Origin: Deltaproteobacteria bacterium
GTDB lineage: Bacteria; Desulfobacterota; BSN033; UBA1163
Assembly (NCBI GenBank): GCA_016875255.1
Contig: VGRU01000056.1
Coordinates: 1-15,971, forward strand
Length of the DNA: 15,971 nt
Direction of reading: 5' to 3'
Under the pieces are notes generated by a model, which saw nothing but the letters and a program-made list of their open reading frames with translations, had not been told where the DNA came from and did not search any database. The translations under genes and the position numbers were made by a program. Shown one piece after another: positions 611-10,178 of this stretch (positions are counted from its first letter, which is position 1; each line of letters begins with the position of its first letter).

Positions 611-2005
611 ATGAACCCAAAGAGAGTCATTATTATCGGCGGAGGTCCAGGCGGTTATGTGGCTGCGATTCGGGCGGCTCAATTAGGAGCCAAAGTGACC
701 CTGATCGAGAAGGATAAAATCGGCGGAACCTGTCTCAATCGTGGGTGTATTCCCACAAAAGCCCTTCTGCACGATGCAAAATTACTTCACTCACTCAAAG
801 GGTCCCCTGTCTTTCAGCTCCTTTCCTTCGACACTTCCGGACTTCTAAACCCAATGATGGAGCGGAAGAAGAAGGTCGTTGAGGAGCTGGTAAAGGGCGT
901 CGAGATATTGCTCGAATCGCATCGGGTGACCATTAAGCATGGTCAGGCTGACCTTTTGAATCCCAATCAAGTGGTTCTGTTGAATGGAGAGAAAGAGATC
1001 ATTGATGCTGATACAATCATTTTGGCTCCCGGTTCGAAATCGAAGGGACTTCCAAACATCACTCCAGACAGTAACAGGATCATCACCAGTGATGAAGCGC
1101 TGGAGATAACACAAATCCCCCGGGAAATGGTCATCCTCGGTGGAGGATACATCGGCGTTGAGTTTGCCACGCTCTTCAATACACTCGGTTCAAGAGTAAC
1201 GATTGTAGAGATTCTGGAGAATATTCTTCCTGGTCTTGAGGGAGAATTAATCCGGAATCTTCGGAGGTTTTTGGAAAGGGACGGGGTCAAGATTTTAACT
1301 CAATCCTCTGTCGAAGAGATTCAATATGGGGAGAATGGGTTAAGGCTTACGGTTAAAACCCCCCAGGGGATCCAGGAGATCATTGCTGAAAAATTACTTA
1401 TGGCTGTGGGAAGAGGCCCCAACTTAGAACTAAGTTTTTCAAAGGCAGGTATTGAGATTTCCCCTAAAGGGATTAAGGTCAACCGTCGAATGGAAACAAC
1501 TGTTCCGGGTATCTATGCGATCGGAGATGCCATTGAAGGAATCATGCTTGCTCATGTGGCAATGGAGCAGGGCATGGTAGCAGCGGAGAATGCGATGGGT
1601 CTCCATCGAGAATGGAATCCCCTTTTAATCCCCCTTTGCATCTTCAGCCATCCTGAAGTTGCTTCCATTGGCCTCACTGAGAAAGAGGCAAAGACAAAAG
1701 GAGAGATAAAGATCGGTCGTTTTCCATTCCGGTCCAATCCGAAGGCCGTGATCTCAGGAGAGACCGATGGACTGATCAAAGTGATTGCGAGTCGCGAGAA
1801 CGATACCCTCTTAGGTGTTCATATCATCGGGCCTGAAGCAACTGTTCTCATCTCCATTGCATCGACGATGATAGGGGGCAAGCTAAAAGAGTTTGCCAGT
1901 TTCATTCAAGCCCATCCCACAGTTCCGGAGGCGCTGAAAGAGGCATGCCTCGATGCGGATGGCTTGGCGATTCATCTTCCCAAGCCACTGCGACCCAAGC
2001 CGTAG
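611..2005 (+). CDS. lpdA: Dihydrolipoyl dehydrogenase (E3 / glycine cleavage L-protein)
   Basis: A 464-residue flavoprotein that reoxidises protein-bound dihydrolipoamide with NAD+ in 2-oxoacid dehydrogenase complexes or the glycine cleavage system. Seen: N-terminal FAD-binding Rossmann motif GGGPGGYVAA (residues 10-19), redox-active disulfide GGTCLNRGCIPTK with Cys41 and Cys46, a second dinucleotide-binding motif GGGYIGVEFA near residue 180, the FAD-contact motif AIGDAIEG, and the C-terminal AHPTVPEALKEA block carrying the His-Glu catalytic pair from the partner subunit. Length and domain order are normal for Lpd. The CLNRGCIPTK form and the HPT motif separate it from mercuric and glutathione reductases. 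No strong ribosome binding site is visible before ATG 611. No E1/E2 genes are nearby; lipA follows on the same strand, and a GcvT-containing fusion lies 5.5 kb downstream, so a role with glycine cleavage is plausible but inferred. Confidence 0.95.
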   Translation: MNPKRVIIIGGGPGGYVAAIRAAQLGAKVTLIEKDKIGGTCLNRGCIPTKALLHDAKLLHSLKGSPVFQLLSFDTSGLLNPMMERKKKVVEELVKGVEILLESHRVTIKHGQADLLNPNQVVLLNGEKEIIDADTIILAPGSKSKGLPNITPDSNRIITSDEALEITQIPREMVILGGGYIGVEFATLFNTLGSRVTIVEILENILPGLEGELIRNLRRFLERDGVKILTQSSVEEIQYGENGLRLTVKTPQGIQEIIAEKLLMAVGRGPNLELSFSKAGIEISPKGIKVNRRMETTVPGIYAIGDAIEGIMLAHVAMEQGMVAAENAMGLHREWNPLLIPLCIFSHPEVASIGLTEKEAKTKGEIKIGRFPFRSNPKAVISGETDGLIKVIASRENDTLLGVHIIGPEATVLISIASTMIGGKLKEFASFIQAHPTVPEALKEACLDADGLAIHLPKPLRPKP

Positions 2006-2200: not shown

Positions 2201-2235
2201 AATTGAAAATTGCCAATTGGTCATTGAACATTGAA
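2201..2235. repeat. Degenerate AATTG-type low-complexity tract at the lipA start
   Basis: Repeats of ATTG-containing units (AATTGAAAATTG, CCAATTGG, CATTGAACATTGAAG) run directly into the lipA start codon. The lipA TTG start is the last unit of this tract, which may explain why no ribosome binding site is seen there. Confidence 0.5.
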
Positions 2236-3094
2236 GACCTTAAAAAAACCTCCCTGGCTTAAAAAGCGGATTCCGCCTTATCAGGATCTTCTTAAAGTGA
2301 AGACCCTCCTGGAGGAATCAGGCCTTCACACCGTTTGTGAGGAGGCGCATTGCCCGAACCTCGGGGAGTGTTTTTCACAAGGGACAGCAACCTTTTTAAT
2401 ACTGGGGGATATCTGCACAAGGAATTGCGGATTCTGTGCTGTCCGGCACGGAACTCCTGTCCCTCCTGCGGAAGATGAACCGAATAGAATTGGGAGAGTG
2501 GTTGTTGAGATGGGCCTCCATTATGTAGTTATCACCTCTGTGACCCGTGATGACCTCCCCGATGGCGGCGCTTCTTTATTTGCGAGAACGATCGAGGCGA
2601 TTCGAGAGCAGGATCAAGGGATTAAGATCGAGGTGCTGGTTCCGGATTTCAGGGGAGACCTCTCTTCTCTTGAGATCATCCTTCGTGCGTCACCGGATGT
2701 CCTTAATCACAATATCGAAACAATCCCCCGACTTTACTCCGAAGTCAGGCCTCAGGCGAACTACAAAAGATCACTTCATCTACTTAAAGAGTCAAGGAGA
2801 AGCTATCCATGGATCCATACCAAATCGGGTTTTATGCTTGGGCTGGGTGAGACGCATGAAGAGGTTTTGGATCTAATGGAAGACCTAAGAGGGGTGGGAT
2901 GCGATTTATTGACCATCGGCCAATATCTGCAGCCTCGATCCGATCGATTGCCTGTCAAAAGATATATCCCTCCCGAAGAATTCGAAGAGTATCAAAAGAT
3001 CGGGATGAAGATAGGCTTCAAAGCCGTTGCCTCCGGCCCCTTCGTTCGCAGCTCCTTCCATGCCTCCCAGATGTTTGCGAGCACTTCAAATTGA
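2231..3094 (+). CDS. lipA: Lipoyl synthase
   Basis: A 287-residue radical-SAM enzyme that inserts two sulfurs into octanoyl groups bound to carrier proteins (H-protein, E2 subunits), making the lipoyl cofactor. Seen: the auxiliary-cluster cysteines in CEEAHCPNLGEC, the radical-SAM cluster motif CTRNCGFC (C-x3-C-x2-C) shortly after, VTSVTRDDLPDGGA, the HNIETIPRLY block, and the C-terminal RSSFHA serine motif that ligates the auxiliary cluster. Length is typical. The start is TTG at 2231: an in-frame TGA at 2225-2227 excludes anything further upstream, and MKTLKKPPWLKKRIP aligns with the usual LipA N-terminus. There is no clear Shine-Dalgarno. Together with lpdA it supplies the lipoate arm of lipoyl-dependent complexes; lipB or lplA is not in the window. 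Confidence 0.96.
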   Translation: MKTLKKPPWLKKRIPPYQDLLKVKTLLEESGLHTVCEEAHCPNLGECFSQGTATFLILGDICTRNCGFCAVRHGTPVPPAEDEPNRIGRVVVEMGLHYVVITSVTRDDLPDGGASLFARTIEAIREQDQGIKIEVLVPDFRGDLSSLEIILRASPDVLNHNIETIPRLYSEVRPQANYKRSLHLLKESRRSYPWIHTKSGFMLGLGETHEEVLDLMEDLRGVGCDLLTIGQYLQPRSDRLPVKRYIPPEEFEEYQKIGMKIGFKAVASGPFVRSSFHASQMFASTSN

Positions 3095-3152: not shown

Positions 3153-4061
3153 ATGAACCTTAACAGATTGGTTTGCATTTTAACTATTTTTATAGCCATA
3201 ACCTCCTGCACCCTGAAAGAGACACAGCCTCCTCCAATCATTCCGGAGGCGCCGGTCCAGCCTCCGCCTAAACCCGCGAAGATTGCGCTGGTGCTTGGGG
3301 CTGGGGCATCCAAGGGGTTTGCTCATATTGGTGCGCTTAAGATTCTTGAAACGAACAAAATCCCGGTTCATATGATCGTGGGGACGAGTGTGGGCAGTGT
3401 CGTCGGAAGCCTTTATGCCTATGGGCTCAATGCTTTTGAGCTTCAGAGATTATCCTTCTCCATCGAACAGAAGGATATTGTGGATATTACCATCCCTGAC
3501 AATGGGTTCATCAAAGGGGAGAAACTGGAGGAGTTTGTCAATAAGACATTGAAGAATACCCCAATGGAAAAACTGAAGATCCCTTTTTATGCAGTTGCCA
3601 CAGAAATCCAGAATGGTCAGGAGACCGTCTTCAACAGGGGGAATACAGGGCAGGCGGTGAGGGCAAGCTCCGCCATTCCGGGTGTTTTCAGACCTGTTAA
3701 AATAGGGGATAAGATCTATGTCGATGGGGGCGTGGTCAGTCCCGTGGCAGTGGATGCCGCTAAACGATTGGGGGCGGATCTGGTCATTGCCGTGGATATC
3801 TCTGCCAGTTCGGAGCGGACTCCTCCCGGAAATACAATTGAGACCCTTCTTCAGTCGATCAATATCATGTATTCGAAACTTGCCGCCATTCAACTCTCAC
3901 AGGCTGATGTGGTGATTCGGCCCAAGGTGGGCCATATCGGGTCCGCCGATTTTTCAAAGAGACATGAGGCAGTTCTCGAAGGCGAGAAAGCGACCATTGA
4001 AGTCATGCCAAGAATCATCGAAATGATTACTCATCTCCGTTTGGAAGGGAGGTTGGAGTAA
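3153..4061 (+). CDS. Patatin-like phospholipase, predicted lipoprotein (RssA/NTE family)
   Basis: A 302-residue predicted lipid acyl hydrolase anchored to a membrane. Seen: an N-terminal signal peptide with lipobox ITSC (lipidated Cys19), a short proline-rich linker (residues 26-41), the oxyanion-hole loop LGAGASKGFAHIG (from residue 48), the nucleophile elbow GTSVG with Ser79, and the dyad aspartate in YVDGG (Asp191). The Ser-Asp dyad is intact, so catalysis is expected; the natural substrate is unknown. The start ATG at 3153 has a good AGGAG upstream. The oxyanion loop has Ala-Ser-Lys where many members have Gly-Ala-Arg. Its own promoter candidate precedes it and it is probably not co-regulated with lipA. 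Inner- versus outer-membrane location is not settled: the residue after Cys19 is Thr, not the Asp that marks inner-membrane retention in enterobacteria, which leans to the outer membrane. Confidence 0.88.
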   Translation: MNLNRLVCILTIFIAITSCTLKETQPPPIIPEAPVQPPPKPAKIALVLGAGASKGFAHIGALKILETNKIPVHMIVGTSVGSVVGSLYAYGLNAFELQRLSFSIEQKDIVDITIPDNGFIKGEKLEEFVNKTLKNTPMEKLKIPFYAVATEIQNGQETVFNRGNTGQAVRASSAIPGVFRPVKIGDKIYVDGGVVSPVAVDAAKRLGADLVIAVDISASSERTPPGNTIETLLQSINIMYSKLAAIQLSQADVVIRPKVGHIGSADFSKRHEAVLEGEKATIEVMPRIIEMITHLRLEGRLE

Positions 4062-4128
4062 GAAAGAATAGGAAATCTTTGATGACAGGTTCGTCACCCT
4101 CAAACAATGAAAATGTTCCGTGTGTTTG

Positions 4129-4266
4129 GGTTAAGGTTACGGTGACGAAGCCCCTGCCTACCGGCAGGCAGGCGTTTCGGTGACGGTTACGGTTACGTGG
4201 AAAGAATTAAGAGACGATAAACGTAGCCTTTTATGAACGATACGGGCCTCGTTACCTTTACCGTTA
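4129..4266. repeat. GGTTACGG-type degenerate repeats around a CCTGCC hairpin
   Basis: The 246-bp gap between the patatin gene and the next gene contains runs of GGTTAAGGTTACGGTGACG (4129-4147) and GGTGACGGTTACGGTTACG (4179-4197), and an inverted degenerate copy CGTTACCTTTACCGTTA (4250-4266). Between the first two sits a hairpin CCTGCC/GGCAGG at 4153-4172. A related hairpin occurs at 10217-10235. No gene is visible here. Confidence 0.55.
4153..4172. repeat. CCTGCCTACCGGCAGGCAGG hairpin, copy 1
   Basis: The 20-nt near-palindrome can form a CCTGCC/GGCAGG or CTGCC/GGCAG stem. It matches 10217-10235 except for one missing base. No T-run follows, so it is not a typical intrinsic terminator. Confidence 0.65.
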
Positions 4267-4307
4267 GACTCTTTTTTTGACCAATTGGAGATGAGGGGGA
4301 TAAAACA

Positions 4308-4721
4308 ATGAACCAAGACCAGGAGCATCTTCGGTTGTTATCGATTTTCCATTACATTGTGGGAGGGATTGCCGCTCTATTCTCTTTCTTCCCGGTCATT
4401 CATCTTGCCCTGGGAATCCTCTTTCTTGTCGCTCCTCAACGCATGGGAGGAAGTCCTCCGCCCCCGTTTTTGGGATGGATTTTTATCATTATGGGGGGAG
4501 GCTTCATGCTTGTAGGCTGGGCATTTGCGGTCTGTGTGATCCTGGCCGGGCGATTTATTGTCAGGCATAAACACTACATCTTCTGTCTTGTCATAGCCAG
4601 CCTGAACTGCCTTTTTATGCCCTTCGGGACGATTCTTGGCGTGTTTACCATCGTCGTTTTGGTGCGACCCTCTGTGAAAGCTCTGTTTTATCCGAGCGAG
4701 GATTTAGTGCTTGCAGTTTAA
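4308..4721 (+). CDS. Small multi-pass membrane protein of unknown function
   Basis: A 137-residue protein I can only place as a conserved-looking integral membrane protein. Seen: a short charged N-terminus (MNQDQEHLRLLS), a hydrophobic segment at about residues 14-44, a proline/glycine loop GGSPPPPF, a second hydrophobic segment at about 53-82, and one or two more between about 89 and 122, with RHKHY in a loop. Four short helices is the likely topology. The start has a strong purine-rich ribosome binding site (GAGGGGGA, about 8 nt upstream). I see no catalytic or metal-binding motif. It is separated from the patatin gene by 246 bp of repeats and faces the minus-strand sensor gene tail to tail with 21 bp between stops, so no operon partner suggests a role. 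Confidence 0.75.
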   Translation: MNQDQEHLRLLSIFHYIVGGIAALFSFFPVIHLALGILFLVAPQRMGGSPPPPFLGWIFIIMGGGFMLVGWAFAVCVILAGRFIVRHKHYIFCLVIASLNCLFMPFGTILGVFTIVVLVRPSVKALFYPSEDLVLAV

Positions 4722-4742
4722 TGCACCCCTGAAAAGGGAAAC

Positions 4743-6365
4743 TTAAATTTCTATGTCCGGATATAATTTTTTAAAACAGTCCGGACAGATGCCGTGGGTG
4801 AATTCTGCTTCGGAACGGTCCCGAATATAGGTCTCGATCTGGCTCCAATAACCTTTGTCATCCCGTATTTTTTTACAGGATGCGCAGATAGGCAATAACC
4901 CGCTCAACTGTTTAACTTCGCTAAGAGCCTTTTGAAGCTGTACGATCAATTTCTCCTTCTCTGCTTCTGCCTTCTTTTGTTCATTAAAAAGCTTTGCATT
5001 GGCAATGGCGCCTGCTATCTGGTGGCCTACTCTTTCAGACAGACTGAGGTCCAGTTCGGCATAAGCATTCGGTTTCAATGATCGAAAGTGAAGAGCGCCT
5101 ATCACTTCGTCCTTTGAAATCAAAGGAACGGATATCATCGATCGAAATCCAGCACGAAAGGAATTCAAGAGGTGAGGATAAGCTTTAAACAATTCATTTT
5201 CATCTTCCGCATGGATGAGAAGGCCAGATCGCGTAACCACAAGTTCTTCATAAATTGAATGAGCAAGGGAGAAAACATCTCCCTGATTGCGGCCATCAAC
5301 TTCATTTCCCCAGGCATAAGCCATTGTAACGGTCTGGGCTTCAGAATTAATGATGGCCACCGAAATCCTGTCAAATGGGATCAATTTACGGACTTCTTCA
5401 GCGAAAAGGCTATAGACTTCGTCAATATCCAGCGTCGAACTGATAATTTGTCCGATCCTGGCGATGGTTGCATTTTCTTGCGATAATCTATTGGCGGCCT
5501 TCTCGCTTCTTATCAGCGCTTGTTCCATCTGGTTACGCTTAGTGACGTCGTGCGCCATACCTCGCACAATGGGCTCAGCCACACCCTCCGTGCGCAGAGT
5601 GTTGTTGTATTCCCATAGTCGTTTTTCTCCTGTCCGGGTCTGAACCAACATTAAACCCTTAGCCACCCCATTTTTTTTGATTGTAGCAAGGTAGTCCGCA
5701 AACCCCTCTTTGACTTCCGGCAATAAGAAGTCGCGCAAGTTCTTCTGCAATAAAAATTTTGAGTCGTATCCCAAAAGATTTGCGGCTCCTTTATTTACAG
5801 AAAGCAATTTACCTCGAAGATCGTGGGTGCAAATTAAGTCTTGACTGAATTCGACCAGGTCCCGATAGCGATCTTCGCTCTCCCGTAGCGCTTCCTCCAT
5901 CTGTTTGCGCTCTGTGATATCCCGGAAACTCCACACTCTTCCAATGATTTGATCCCCAATCTTCTGGGGTTGTGAATATCGCTCAAAGACCCTGCCGTCT
6001 TTGAATTCGAGGACATCATAACTCTCATCCTCGGGAAGATTATACAACTCCCTCACTTTCTTAAGAAAGCCTTCTGGGTCTTTTAACTGGTCCAAGACAA
6101 ACGCAAGTGCCCGATCATCGTCTTTTGACGCAAGAATGGATTCAGGAATCCTCCACATCTGGACAAATTTTCCGTTAAACCTCTCTATCTTCCCCTCTCT
6201 GTCCACTACAAGAATTCCGTCTGCGGTTGACTCCAATGTGGCATTGAGAAGAGACAGGCTATGTTTGATTTCTTCCTCAGCCTTCTTACGTTCTATGATT
6301 TTCTGTTGAAGTTGTTCGTTTATCTTTTGAAGTTCAACAGTTAATGGTGGCGTTTTAATATTCAT
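4743..6365 (-). CDS. PAS-PAS-GAF sensory protein ending in a four-cysteine module (no kinase domain)
   Basis: A 540-residue predicted cytoplasmic signalling protein. Seen in order: an N-terminal coiled coil (about 8-33), a PAS-like domain (about 36-155, ending in FRDITERKQ), a second PAS domain (about 160-285, ending in AHDVTKRNQ), a GAF domain (about 300-460), a coiled coil (about 463-490), and a C-terminal module of about 53 residues with Cys494-x2-Cys497 and Cys527-x2-Cys530 (PICASCKK and HGICPDC) around RDDKGYW. The paired CxxC motifs suggest a small zinc or Fe-S site. There are no transmembrane segments and no His-kinase, GGDEF or helix-turn-helix domain, so the output is probably the cysteine module or a partner protein. 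From memory, this C-terminal module recurs at the ends of PAS and receiver proteins in related bacteria; its function is not known to me. The ATG at 6365 has only a weak ribosome binding site. A broken hybrid kinase lies immediately upstream on the same strand. Confidence 0.85.
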
Positions 6366-6432
6366 TCCGTTGACCTATGGTATCCATCTCAAAAACTTAA
6401 TAGCAGATGTTTAACCCCTTTAACACCCCTTT

Positions 6433-7149
6433 TCAAGTCAATTCACTTTTAGAGCCTCCTTGAAGGCACGGGGCCAGTTCCCTCTTACCGCCCATCCCCG
6501 GCATGACTACATCGGTTAAGAGAAGATGGATCGGGTTACTATTCCCTTCTTGAACCAAACGCAATGCTTCTTCTCCACTGGCAGTTTCGAGGACAATGTA
6601 ACCATTCCTCCTCAGAATGGCACCGGCCACTCTTCGGACGGCCTCTTCATCCTCTGCCAGCAGGATTGTTTCAAAGCCCTGAAGCGATCCCAAAAGGTTA
6701 CCTTGTGGCTCAATCCAATCGAAGTCTTCTTCGACCCTTGGCAGATAGATCTTAAATGTCGTGCCTTGTCCAGGTTCGCTATAAACCAAAATACTCCCAC
6801 CCATCTGTTTAATGATGCCGTAAACAGTGGAAAGACCAAGGCCCGTTCCTCTACCCTCCCCCTTCGTGGTGAAGAAGGGTTCAAAGATGTGCTCTTTGAT
6901 CTCGGGTGACATACCACATCCTGTATCACTTACTGAGAGCATCACATAGGGCCCTGGTGCAACATCAATATGTGTTCGTGCATACTCCTCATCCAATTTC
7001 ATATTGGTTGTTTCAATAGTAAGCCTTCCTCCTCCCGGCATTGCATCTCTGGCGTTCACTGCCAGGTTGATGATCACTTGCTCGATCTGGCCCGGGTCCA
7101 CCTTGGTCTTTCCAAGATTCTCAGCCAAACAGGTTACGGGTTCAATATC
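6433..7149 (-). pseudogene. Truncated hybrid histidine kinase fragment (HATPase + partial receiver)
   Basis: The readable frame covers only the back half of a hybrid sensor kinase. Seen, numbered from the TTG at 7128: N-box NLAVNARDAMP (22-31), G1 box DTGCGM (68-73), F box FEPFFTT (82-88), G2 box GRGTGLGLS (92-100), then a receiver from about residue 153 with acidic residues EDEE and phosphoacceptor Asp206 in LLLTDVVMPGMGG. The receiver stops after this, without the conserved Thr/Ser and Lys strands; the last 17 residues do not look like a receiver. At the other end, kinase-like sequence (DIEPVTCLAENLGK) continues upstream of the TTG to an in-frame TGA at 7150-7152; the H-box/DHp domain and sensor are absent. 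Loss at both ends argues for a pseudogene rather than a short functional kinase. The adjacent PAS-GAF protein lacks a kinase domain, so the two may derive from one ancestral sensor locus. Confidence 0.75.
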
Positions 7150-7463: not shown

Positions 7464-10178
7464 ATGCCAAAAAACTTAAAACGAACACCCCTTTATTCAT
7501 GGCATAAGGAACATGGTGGGCAGATGGTGGAGTTTGCCGGCTGGGAGATGCCGGTCTCTTATAAGGCGGGCATCCTCGAAGAACATCTTGCCACAAGAAG
7601 ATACGGAGGCCTCTTCGATATTTCCCACATGGGACGTTTCCTGATTTACGGAGAAGAAGCCATTCCCTTTTTACAGCAGGTCCTGACGAATAATGTCCTG
7701 GCTTTGGAGCACGGCATGGCCCAGTACACCCTGATCCAGAATGAATGGGGCGAAGCCATTGATGATGCTTATCTTTATCGGCTGGATATAGGAAACCTTC
7801 CTTCAGAATCGAGATACCTTCTTGTGGTCAATGCCGCCAATAAAGTGAGAGACTGGAATTGGTTGATCGAGCATCAGAGACGGTTCAGGGGCCTCATCCT
7901 CGAAGATAAAAGTGAAGAGATGGGAATGATTGCCCTCCAGGGCCCCGTTACCAAAAGGGTGTTGGAAAAGATCGTCATCGAGAGCCATTCAAAACTACCT
8001 GATCCCTGGAGGAATCGTTTGAGGGTTTGCGAGATCGAAGGGACCAGAGTCGCTGTCACCATCTCAAGAACCGGATATACGGGAGAGCCCATCTGCTTCG
8101 AACTCTTTTCCGAGAGAGAGAAGATGCGAATGATATGGGAAGCGATTCTTGCCGTTGGAGAGAAAGAGGGTATTGTACCGGTAGGTTTGGGGGCAAGAGA
8201 TACCCTGAGAACCGAGGCAGGTCTTCCCCTGTATGGCCATGAATTGGGGATGGATCAGGAGGGAAAAGAGATTCCCATCTTTGCGGTTTATTCAGCCGGA
8301 TTGGCAGTCAGTTTTTCTCCTTTGAAAGGGGATTTTATAGGCAGGGAGGCGCTGCGGAGACAGTTTGAAGAATTGAAAGCAAGGACGGATGGAACTCCTC
8401 TCCCCCCCAGAGAGAAGCAGACCATTCCCAGACGGGTTGTTCCCGTTGCGATGATTGGAAGTCAGGGCGGACAGGCGATTGCAAGGCAAGGCTATGAAGT
8501 CTTTGTGAACGGAAAACCGGTAGGGCATGTGACCAGTGGAACCATGGTCCCTTACTGGATATTTTCTGACGAGGGAATCCTGTCCAAACCGACCGAAGAA
8601 AGAGGGATGAGGGCCATTGCCTTGGCCTATATCGATTCCGATTTTGAAGAGGGGAAGAGGATAGAGATCCAGCAGAGAGGAAAGACGATCGAAGGAATCA
8701 TCGTAGAAAAGCATTTATCCGGTGAGGCGCCTCCCTATGCCCGGCCCATTCTGGTTCAGGAGAAGATATTAAAAAGGCGTGAGCCTGTCAGGGATTTGAA
8801 AGATGCGGCAAAAAAGCTGGTCGAGCGGGCGATCCGGAATACCTACTGGAGGCAGAGAGAGACGATTAACCTTATTCCTTCGGAACAGACGCCGTCCCCG
8901 TTGGTAAGACTCCTCACGATCATGGATCCATCGCACCGGTATGCGGAGCACCGTGTCGTCAAGGCCCTTGGAGAGAGGGATGTTTTCTATTATCAGGGAA
9001 CGAAGTTGATCGAAGAGGTGGAAGTCCTCCTTGCAGATGAGATGCGAAGCTATTTAGGGTGCTCCGAGGTTGAGGCGAGGGTGATCAGCGGGCAGATGGC
9101 CAACACGGTTGTCTTCAGCGGTTTGATGGATTTTCTCAACCGGCTCGACCGGAAGAGCGATCCTCGAAGGATCAGGAAGGTGATGAATCATCATCTCGGA
9201 AGGGGGGGCCATCTCAGCGCACAACCCATGGGCGCTCTGAGAGATTTTATAGCCATCGATCCTCTGACGGAGAGGCCTTCCGTGGTTCCGTTCCCGGTGC
9301 TGAAGGAGGATCTCTATCAGATCGATCTCTCCAAAACAGAAGAACTTCTGGGAATACATAAACCTGAGTTGATCGTTCTTGGCAAGAGCATGATCCTTTA
9401 TAGGGAACCTCTCAAAGAGGTTGCGCGGATGGCATCCAATATCAAACCCAGGCCGATCATTCTTTATGACATGGCCCATGTATTGGGATTGATCGGGCCC
9501 TATTTTCAGGAACCCTTTCAGGAGGGGGCGGATATCGTCACCGGTTCCACTCATAAAACCTTTTTCGGTCCCCAGAGGGGGATCATTGGGAGCAATATGT
9601 CAGAAGGGACGTCGTACGAGGACCTCTGGGAAGCCATTGTCCGGAGGGTTTTCCCCGGAAGTGTGAGCAACCATCATCTCGGAACGCTTTTAGGACTGCT
9701 CATGGCGGCCTATGAGATGAATCTCTATAAATCAGACTATCAGAAGGCAGTGATCTCCAATGCCAAAGCCTTTGCCCGTTCTTTGAAAGAGAAAGGATTA
9801 ACCGTGGAGGGAGACTCGCGGCTTGGATATACGGAAACCCATCAGGTGATCGTCAGAGTGGGTTATGGAAAGGGACCGGTCGTGGCCGAACGGCTGGAGG
9901 AGAACAACATCATCGTCAACTATCAGGCCGCCCCGGATGACGAGGCCTTCACCGCAGCCAGTTGTCTGAGGATGGGAGTTCAGGAGATGACCCGTTTCGG
10001 GATGAAGGAGGAGGATTTTAGGCAATTAGCAGAATATATGAGCGAGGTCATCCTTCATGGCCGATCCGTGGCGAAAGAGGTTTCAGGATTCAGAAAGAGA
10101 TTTACGGAGATGAGTTACTGTCTGCCTGAGGCAGAGGCCGCCTCGCTGGTCAATGGACTCATTGAAGCGATCCGATAG
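7464..10178 (+). CDS. Fused aminomethyltransferase (GcvT) - serine hydroxymethyltransferase-like protein
   Basis: One uninterrupted 904-residue frame. Residues 1 to about 430 are GcvT: FAGWEMPVSY, GLFDISHMG, the catalytic-aspartate region AIDDAYLYR (Asp100/101), ALQGP, SRTGYTGE, PVGLGARDTLRTEAGLPLYGHE, DFIGREAL and VTSGT. After a linker (about 431-450), the rest is a PLP fold-type I SHMT-like domain: NLIPSE, RYAEHR, YYQGTKLIEEVE, ISGQMAN, GGHLS, LYDMAHVLGLIG and the PLP-lysine motif GSTHKTFFGP with Lys698. GcvT transfers the aminomethyl carbon between lipoyl-H-protein and tetrahydrofolate; SHMT interconverts glycine and serine with the same methylene-THF. Both normally are separate proteins of about 365 and 420 residues. 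The GcvT part has two insertions (about 301-325 and 361-378). The SHMT part lacks the usual QGGP motif (SNHHLGT instead). ATG 7464 is preceded by GGAAAGGGG. A role in glycine/serine C1 flux is strongly suggested; the SHMT substrate is less certain. Confidence 0.9.
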   Translation: MPKNLKRTPLYSWHKEHGGQMVEFAGWEMPVSYKAGILEEHLATRRYGGLFDISHMGRFLIYGEEAIPFLQQVLTNNVLALEHGMAQYTLIQNEWGEAIDDAYLYRLDIGNLPSESRYLLVVNAANKVRDWNWLIEHQRRFRGLILEDKSEEMGMIALQGPVTKRVLEKIVIESHSKLPDPWRNRLRVCEIEGTRVAVTISRTGYTGEPICFELFSEREKMRMIWEAILAVGEKEGIVPVGLGARDTLRTEAGLPLYGHELGMDQEGKEIPIFAVYSAGLAVSFSPLKGDFIGREALRRQFEELKARTDGTPLPPREKQTIPRRVVPVAMIGSQGGQAIARQGYEVFVNGKPVGHVTSGTMVPYWIFSDEGILSKPTEERGMRAIALAYIDSDFEEGKRIEIQQRGKTIEGIIVEKHLSGEAPPYARPILVQEKILKRREPVRDLKDAAKKLVERAIRNTYWRQRETINLIPSEQTPSPLVRLLTIMDPSHRYAEHRVVKALGERDVFYYQGTKLIEEVEVLLADEMRSYLGCSEVEARVISGQMANTVVFSGLMDFLNRLDRKSDPRRIRKVMNHHLGRGGHLSAQPMGALRDFIAIDPLTERPSVVPFPVLKEDLYQIDLSKTEELLGIHKPELIVLGKSMILYREPLKEVARMASNIKPRPIILYDMAHVLGLIGPYFQEPFQEGADIVTGSTHKTFFGPQRGIIGSNMSEGTSYEDLWEAIVRRVFPGSVSNHHLGTLLGLLMAAYEMNLYKSDYQKAVISNAKAFARSLKEKGLTVEGDSRLGYTETHQVIVRVGYGKGPVVAERLEENNIIVNYQAAPDDEAFTAASCLRMGVQEMTRFGMKEEDFRQLAEYMSEVILHGRSVAKEVSGFRKRFTEMSYCLPEAEAASLVNGLIEAIR

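Follow-up and report, generated by a model that had tools for sequence, protein, structure and literature searches.

In plants, mitochondrial glycine decarboxylase works with a separate serine hydroxymethyltransferase (SHMT), and together they turn two glycine into serine with recycling of tetrahydrofolate (THF). The same net chemistry would be carried out by a single chain encoded at positions 7464-10178 (+) of a 15,971-nucleotide stretch of contig VGRU01000056.1 from a Deltaproteobacteria bacterium (the whole of this stretch is called the window below). In this chain, the aminomethyltransferase of glycine cleavage (GcvT or T-protein, here the T half) runs on into an SHMT-fold domain dependent on pyridoxal phosphate (PLP, here the S half). 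A second comparison is with dimethylglycine dehydrogenase/oxidase and sarcosine oxidase, in which a GCV_T domain is likewise fused to another enzyme with a common C1 intermediate; channelling to THF through an internal cavity has been described for dimethylglycine oxidase/dehydrogenase (PMC5082570). The partner in those enzymes, however, is an N-terminal FAD oxidase, whereas here it is a C-terminal PLP-dependent SHMT, and in the T-S fusion the moving entity would be the folate itself.

No description of a GcvT-SHMT fusion was found among the titles and abstract openings listed by searches of the open-access literature, subscription papers lying outside this scope. The words "fusion" and "fused" do not occur in the main text of a study of Desulfobacterota (PMC12827605), nor in PMC7547702. 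As far as can be searched, the combination of these two known enzymes is undescribed rather than unseen, since a protein collection already displays the architecture through its precomputed Pfam domains.

The Fused Gene and Its Proposed Function

The features of the gene are as follows:

7464-10178, + strand: T-S fusion gene, 904 aa, single open frame without internal stop
7464..8738, + strand: T domain, aminomethyltransferase (GcvT), residues 1-425
7764..7766, + strand: Asp101, aligned with Asp96 of the T. maritima T-protein (alignment, position counted by hand)
8739..8795, + strand: linker, residues 426-444, with pLDDT below 50 at 434-438 inside it
8796..10178, + strand: S domain, SHMT-fold PLP domain of a divergent "long" clade, residues 445-904 and stop
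9555..9557, + strand: Lys698, PLP Schiff-base lysine (E. coli Lys229), in GSTHKT
9924..9926, + strand: Gln821, in the place of the folate-contacting Asn347 (E. coli) or Asn341 (B. stearothermophilus)

The first-pass annotation had read the 904-codon frame as GcvT joined to an SHMT-like domain, with Lys698 as a landmark of the latter. Both points hold: Pfam finds GCV_T at residues 10-264 (249.3 bits), GCV_T_C at 323-363 (43.3 bits) and SHMT at 453-859 (128.6 bits), all above cut-off, and Lys698 lies within GSTHKT. The same annotation had considered a missed stop or frameshift at residues 430-450; none was seen, and the junction (8740-8830) is continuous in other assemblies.

We consider it quite probable, from sequence comparison, that the fusion is a real bifunctional T-protein/SHMT whose halves share 5,10-methylene-THF, a connection already proposed at first pass and now well supported by the domain matches, the conserved residues, the gene neighbours and the status of the S half as the sole SHMT found in 17/17 genomes of the closest family. 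As judged from the sequence, both folds are complete, their catalytic residues are conserved and they lie in one frame; we infer the T and S activities, the use of folate as carrier by the S half, and dimerisation through that half. The T domain would convert the aminomethyl group of lipoylated H-protein, with THF, into 5,10-methylene-THF and ammonia, or the reverse, and the S domain would interconvert methylene-THF plus glycine and THF plus serine. The joined halves would thus form the tail of a pathway in one protein, making serine, CO2 and NH3 from two glycine while THF turns over locally, or running in reverse; a direction of the reductive glycine type would be allowed, since FTHFS is present in most genomes of the family.

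If both halves are active, the protein would be a natural one-chain link to serine from glycine cleavage (or from the reductive synthesis of glycine), it could be used directly for testing folate channelling, and it would offer engineers of the reductive glycine pathway a ready-made fused module.

The T Half Has a Complete GcvT Fold

The T half has the whole T fold, covering 358 of the 361 residues of 1wos (other solved T-proteins are 1yx2 and 3a8i), and it passes the GcvT equivalog cut-off of TIGR00528 (254.5 against 235.85) as well as that of NF001567 (301.7 against 300); the cut-off of NF010093 is not reached (211.9 against 459). The folate site retains its conserved Asp, Glu and Arg. The position of Asp101, a residue which we take to be catalytic in the T-protein, is Asp in 39/40 fused T rows (the other being a gap) and in 99/99 database hits. 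A further likeness to GcvT is the presence of glycine cleavage genes around the fusion in relatives of the window. Unlike GcvT, the fusion matches just 38 of the 80 Pfam GCV_T_C positions, apparently on account of extra residues in the C-terminal barrel, and its chain leads on to a further enzyme.

The S Half Belongs to a Divergent SHMT Clade

The possibility had been raised at first pass that the C-terminal half is a different PLP enzyme. It matches the SHMT superfamily profile (PF00464) and fold, and it has the PLP lysine and the catalytic residues of SHMT; it therefore belongs to the SHMT family, though not to canonical GlyA, an identity rejected because the cut-off of the NCBI model NF000586 is missed and the S clade stands separate in the tree. 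Canonical GlyA (structures 1dfo and 1kkj) and the S half resemble each other in fold, in catalytic residues and in the reaction to be expected; they differ in score, in tree position and at the positions of Asn347, Ser99 and Arg235, all of which are Gln in the S half.

Sequence and tree place the S half in a divergent clade near the archaeal-type SHMT. The enzyme of M. jannaschii (4bhd, 4uqv), which we take to use a pterin, is its nearest solved relative in sequence and fold: the S half covers 399 of the 415 residues of 4bhd, and the GSTHKTFFGPQ and VSNHH motifs are common to both. Identity in the structural alignments is nevertheless only 30-36%, and, unlike the archaeal enzyme, the S half has inserts near residues 558-572 and 597-610, has Gln at the Asn347 position and is fused to GcvT.

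The folate contact of Asn347/Asn341 in SHMT is documented in PMC4257618. At this position, Gln occurs in 40/41 fused rows (one gap), 119/119 hits and 8/8 rows that bear the label of unfused long-clade, among them L023, in fact a fusion cut by a contig end. Asn occurs in 6/6 GlyA rows and 8/10 archaeal-like rows (the others being one Ile and one gap); one locus labelled archaeal-like by score, L072, falls inside the long clade. At the positions from Ser35 to Glu57, two of the six GlyA rows have alignment gaps.

How Widespread Is the Fusion?

The first-pass annotation had proposed a survey of genomes for proteins with both domains, and the fusion indeed recurs widely, both in the databases and in a sample of the phylum. 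A search with residues 430-904 passed 5726 of 7998 scored candidates and one with a 916-aa homologue (L012) passed 5724 of 7999, totals that take in other relatives and are not counts of fusions. Among the 120 matches listed for the former (the protein of the window included), 106 have GCV_T, SHMT and GCV_T_C, and 14 are shorter and lack GCV_T; all 120 listed for the latter carry the three domains. The labels on the fusion loci include Deltaproteobacteria, Syntrophaceae, SAR324, Planctomycetota, Nitrospiraceae and Firestonebacteria; such labels of metagenome-assembled genomes may be wrong. The source names seen for the fused proteins (aminomethyltransferase, glycine cleavage T protein or GcvT) describe the first half only, and an SHMT would be hidden under the name GcvT. 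In the methods part of PMC12827605, sequences with a deviating domain structure are removed before the trees are built; pathway surveys that discard unexpected domain structures in this way could miss the fusion.

In the phylum sample, a match was counted when identity reached 55% or more and the frame either measured 663-1112 aa or ran into the end of its contig (as in G032, where the contig cuts the gene); 34/395 genomes have one. All 17 sampled genomes of the closest family match, and the sampled genomes of its order are those same 17; the gene is intact in 14, cut in G031 and in two frames in G009, and in G032, where the contig stops, nothing but the S part is present. No fused frame was found in the six other sampled genomes of the class, where the hit in G036 begins at the edge of its contig and allows no verdict. 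One family genome has the fusion in two frames with residues ~258-284 missing (L011, 1169-3821), which is either a broken gene or an assembly gap.

The trees and residue counts omit 13 duplicate or fragment loci (L035-L040, L042, L044, L065, L073, L076, L077 and L084), and pieces of fewer than 280 (S) or 250 (T) residues were excluded from the trees. The S tree, obtained by a quick search, gathers the fused rows into a single group that also takes in L029 and L023 (SH-aLRT 93, not starred). A single fusion event is the simplest reading of this tree but is not proven by it; the T-domain tree is poorly resolved, with long branches, and supports no conclusion on the number of fusion events. For three loci, the label of having one half alone is an artefact: contig ends cut L023 and L042 short, and L011 is broken or gapped. 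At L029, GAGGAG directly precedes the stop of T, and an ATG belonging to S follows two bases past that stop; this two-gene form may have arisen by fission or may represent the unfused ancestor. In one genome (G022), a T-protein of the fusion type without an S half (L065) and a long-clade S protein standing by itself (L064) are on different contigs, and a further archaeal-like SHMT is present.

Is the Fusion the Sole SHMT or the Sole T-Protein?

A PF00464 search found the fused S domain as the only SHMT in every one of the 17 family genomes. Chance gaps in the assemblies are an unlikely cause of the absence of GlyA from all of them, since FTHFS was found in 15/17 (once as a fragment) and GCV_T in 16/17. 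Over all fusion genomes, the fused S domain is the only SHMT found in 27/47, and the other 20 keep another; this sole-SHMT status, the divergence of the S half and the wide spread of the fusion go beyond what the first-pass annotation had noticed.

No other T-protein of ordinary length was found by a GCV_T search of the 17 family genomes; extra GCV_T hits in 11 of them lie in frames of 771-841 aa. The sole such frame examined (C92 of G001, L085 484-2937) is like dimethylglycine dehydrogenase, with DAO, FAO_M, GCV_T and GCV_T_C, and is a second GcvT-domain fusion in these cells. Among 21 further fusion genomes, one (G081) has a separate T-protein of ordinary length, three (G140, G183 and G341) have GCV_T hits in frames of 769-819 aa, and G140 has a short partial hit in a 659-aa frame. 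The sole-T status is not general, because separate GCV_T proteins of ordinary length occur in G010, G014 and G015 and several more GCV_T proteins in the SAR324-type genomes G011-G013.

Alternative Explanations

Several observations weigh against a bifunctional T-protein/SHMT. The S half scores 247.5 against NF000586, below the curated cut-off of 335; Gln replaces the folate-contacting Asn347, as it does Ser99 and Arg235 (the last as in archaeal-like rows), and Ser replaces Thr226. Another SHMT is present in 9/9 fusion genomes of the first set outside the closest family and in 11 of the 21 further ones (the fused S being the only match in the other 10), so the fused SHMT is not always the housekeeping enzyme. 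Nor is the fusion obligatory, since T and S are separate adjacent genes in L029. Among the 17 fusion genomes examined for glycine cleavage genes, gcvPA is on the same contig within ~16 kb in only seven (G001, G002, G004, G005, G007, G008 and G016), and the search of G003 and G006 yielded no P-protein. Finally, the predicted structure of the fusion has a pLDDT of 87.2 and a pTM of 0.81, with segments below 50 at 333-336, 434-438 and 731-733, and two active-site stretches are modelled less surely (491-510, pLDDT 61-65; 731-740, pLDDT 55).

One simple explanation, a sub-case of the bifunctional reading to which we give about even chances, is that the fusion does no more than secure a 1:1 ratio and joint expression of the two enzymes, while methylene-THF enters the general pool. 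This would fit the freely variable sequence in the middle of the linker, the split form at L029 and the other SHMT in 20 of the 47 fusion genomes. It is weakly opposed by the shortness of the connection, the stretch from ...PPYA to NLIPSE measuring 41-49 residues in 265 long fused sequences (the window and duplicates included), much of it structured ends of the domains, and by the overall confidence of the model, which is as might be expected for a defined arrangement of domains. A short linker of narrow length range would be compatible with channelling; that methylene-THF is handed directly from one active site to the other is speculative. A fuller version of this idea, which we hold to be doubtful, is that the protein is dedicated to glycine-serine conversion, with methylene-THF or folate passing between T and S unreleased and the Gln-for-Asn pterin contact being an adaptation of the clade; it would be the only such C1 hub of a whole uncultured order, and possibly the last step of a route of the reductive glycine type.

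Another possibility is that the S half has the SHMT fold but catalyses a different reaction (as a transaldolase, an aldolase or an enzyme of the 2-methylserine type) or uses a pterin other than THF. We regard this as improbable, given that the SHMT catalytic residues are kept, that the fused S domain is the sole SHMT found in 27 genomes, and that its unfused relatives are found within an rpiB-S-purD-purE cluster or beside a serA-like gene; moreover, Gln would be able to make the same type of amide contact as Asn. A transaldolase identity in particular was judged unlikely after the catalytic positions had been checked, the score against the fluorothreonine transaldolase model TIGR04506 (155.7) being far under the cut-off of 650.

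That one half is a catalytically dead scaffold has general precedent only in its favour and is very improbable: in both halves the catalytic positions have been kept even among diverged members, and most changes fall at third codon positions. The latter comes from a comparison of the window with five relatives of equal length (L001, L010, L002, L004 and L007; 2715 aligned bases), the differences from L001 at codon positions 1/2/3 being 17/12/95 in T and 10/7/37 in S. On its own, the junction gives no information of this kind, since L001 has too few differences there (1/0/0) and the other relatives lean less to third positions (for example, 9/3/11 in L010). An artefact of assembly or frameshift uniting two genes, for which no support was found (L029 shows that T and S can be neighbours), has a negligible chance and is rejected because the same fusion recurs in many other records across databases and genomes.

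Gene Neighbourhoods

Two genes of the lipoyl-dependent system lie ~4 kb upstream of the fusion in the window:

611..2005, + strand: lpdA-like dihydrolipoyl dehydrogenase (L-protein), Pyr_redox_2 and Pyr_redox_dim
2231..3094, + strand: lipA-like lipoyl synthase, Radical_SAM and LIAS_N

Encoding together with the glycine cleavage or lipoylation genes is found in several lineages, but it is not general. A close relative (G001) has gcvH-gcvPA-gcvPB-lipB-lpdA (L075) followed by lipA, which ends the cluster, with the fusion ~8 kb further on (L001). Elsewhere, the fusion follows gcvH-gcvPA-gcvPB (gcvPA and gcvPB assigned by position), two radical-SAM genes and an lplA-like gene (L009), precedes gcvH-lipB-radical SAM (L088) or gcvH and part of gcvP (L093), or directly follows lpdA (L091). 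The unfused S gene of L029 is followed by a serA-like 2-hydroxyacid dehydrogenase, and a stand-alone S gene is between rpiB and purD-purE in L027; the adjacency of rpiB and glyA is known in bacteria. No riboswitch, such as that for glycine, was matched by Rfam in the window at the gathering threshold.

The content between lipA and the fusion differs between the window (3153-7128) and L001 (2664-9630) beyond common patatin-like and small membrane genes, as if the interval were an insertion-prone spot. Within it, the ORF at 6433-7128 (-) resembles, by eye only, a hybrid histidine kinase in its C-terminal part. At the other end of the lpdA-lipA pair, a small IS200-like (Y1_Tnp) transposase ORF (49-552, +) adjoins lpdA. 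A UPF0047 protein is found by Pfam near the fusion in L001 (4170-4589), and a UPF0047 candidate, recognised by its similar sequence start only, directly follows the stand-alone S gene of L024 (2279-2695).
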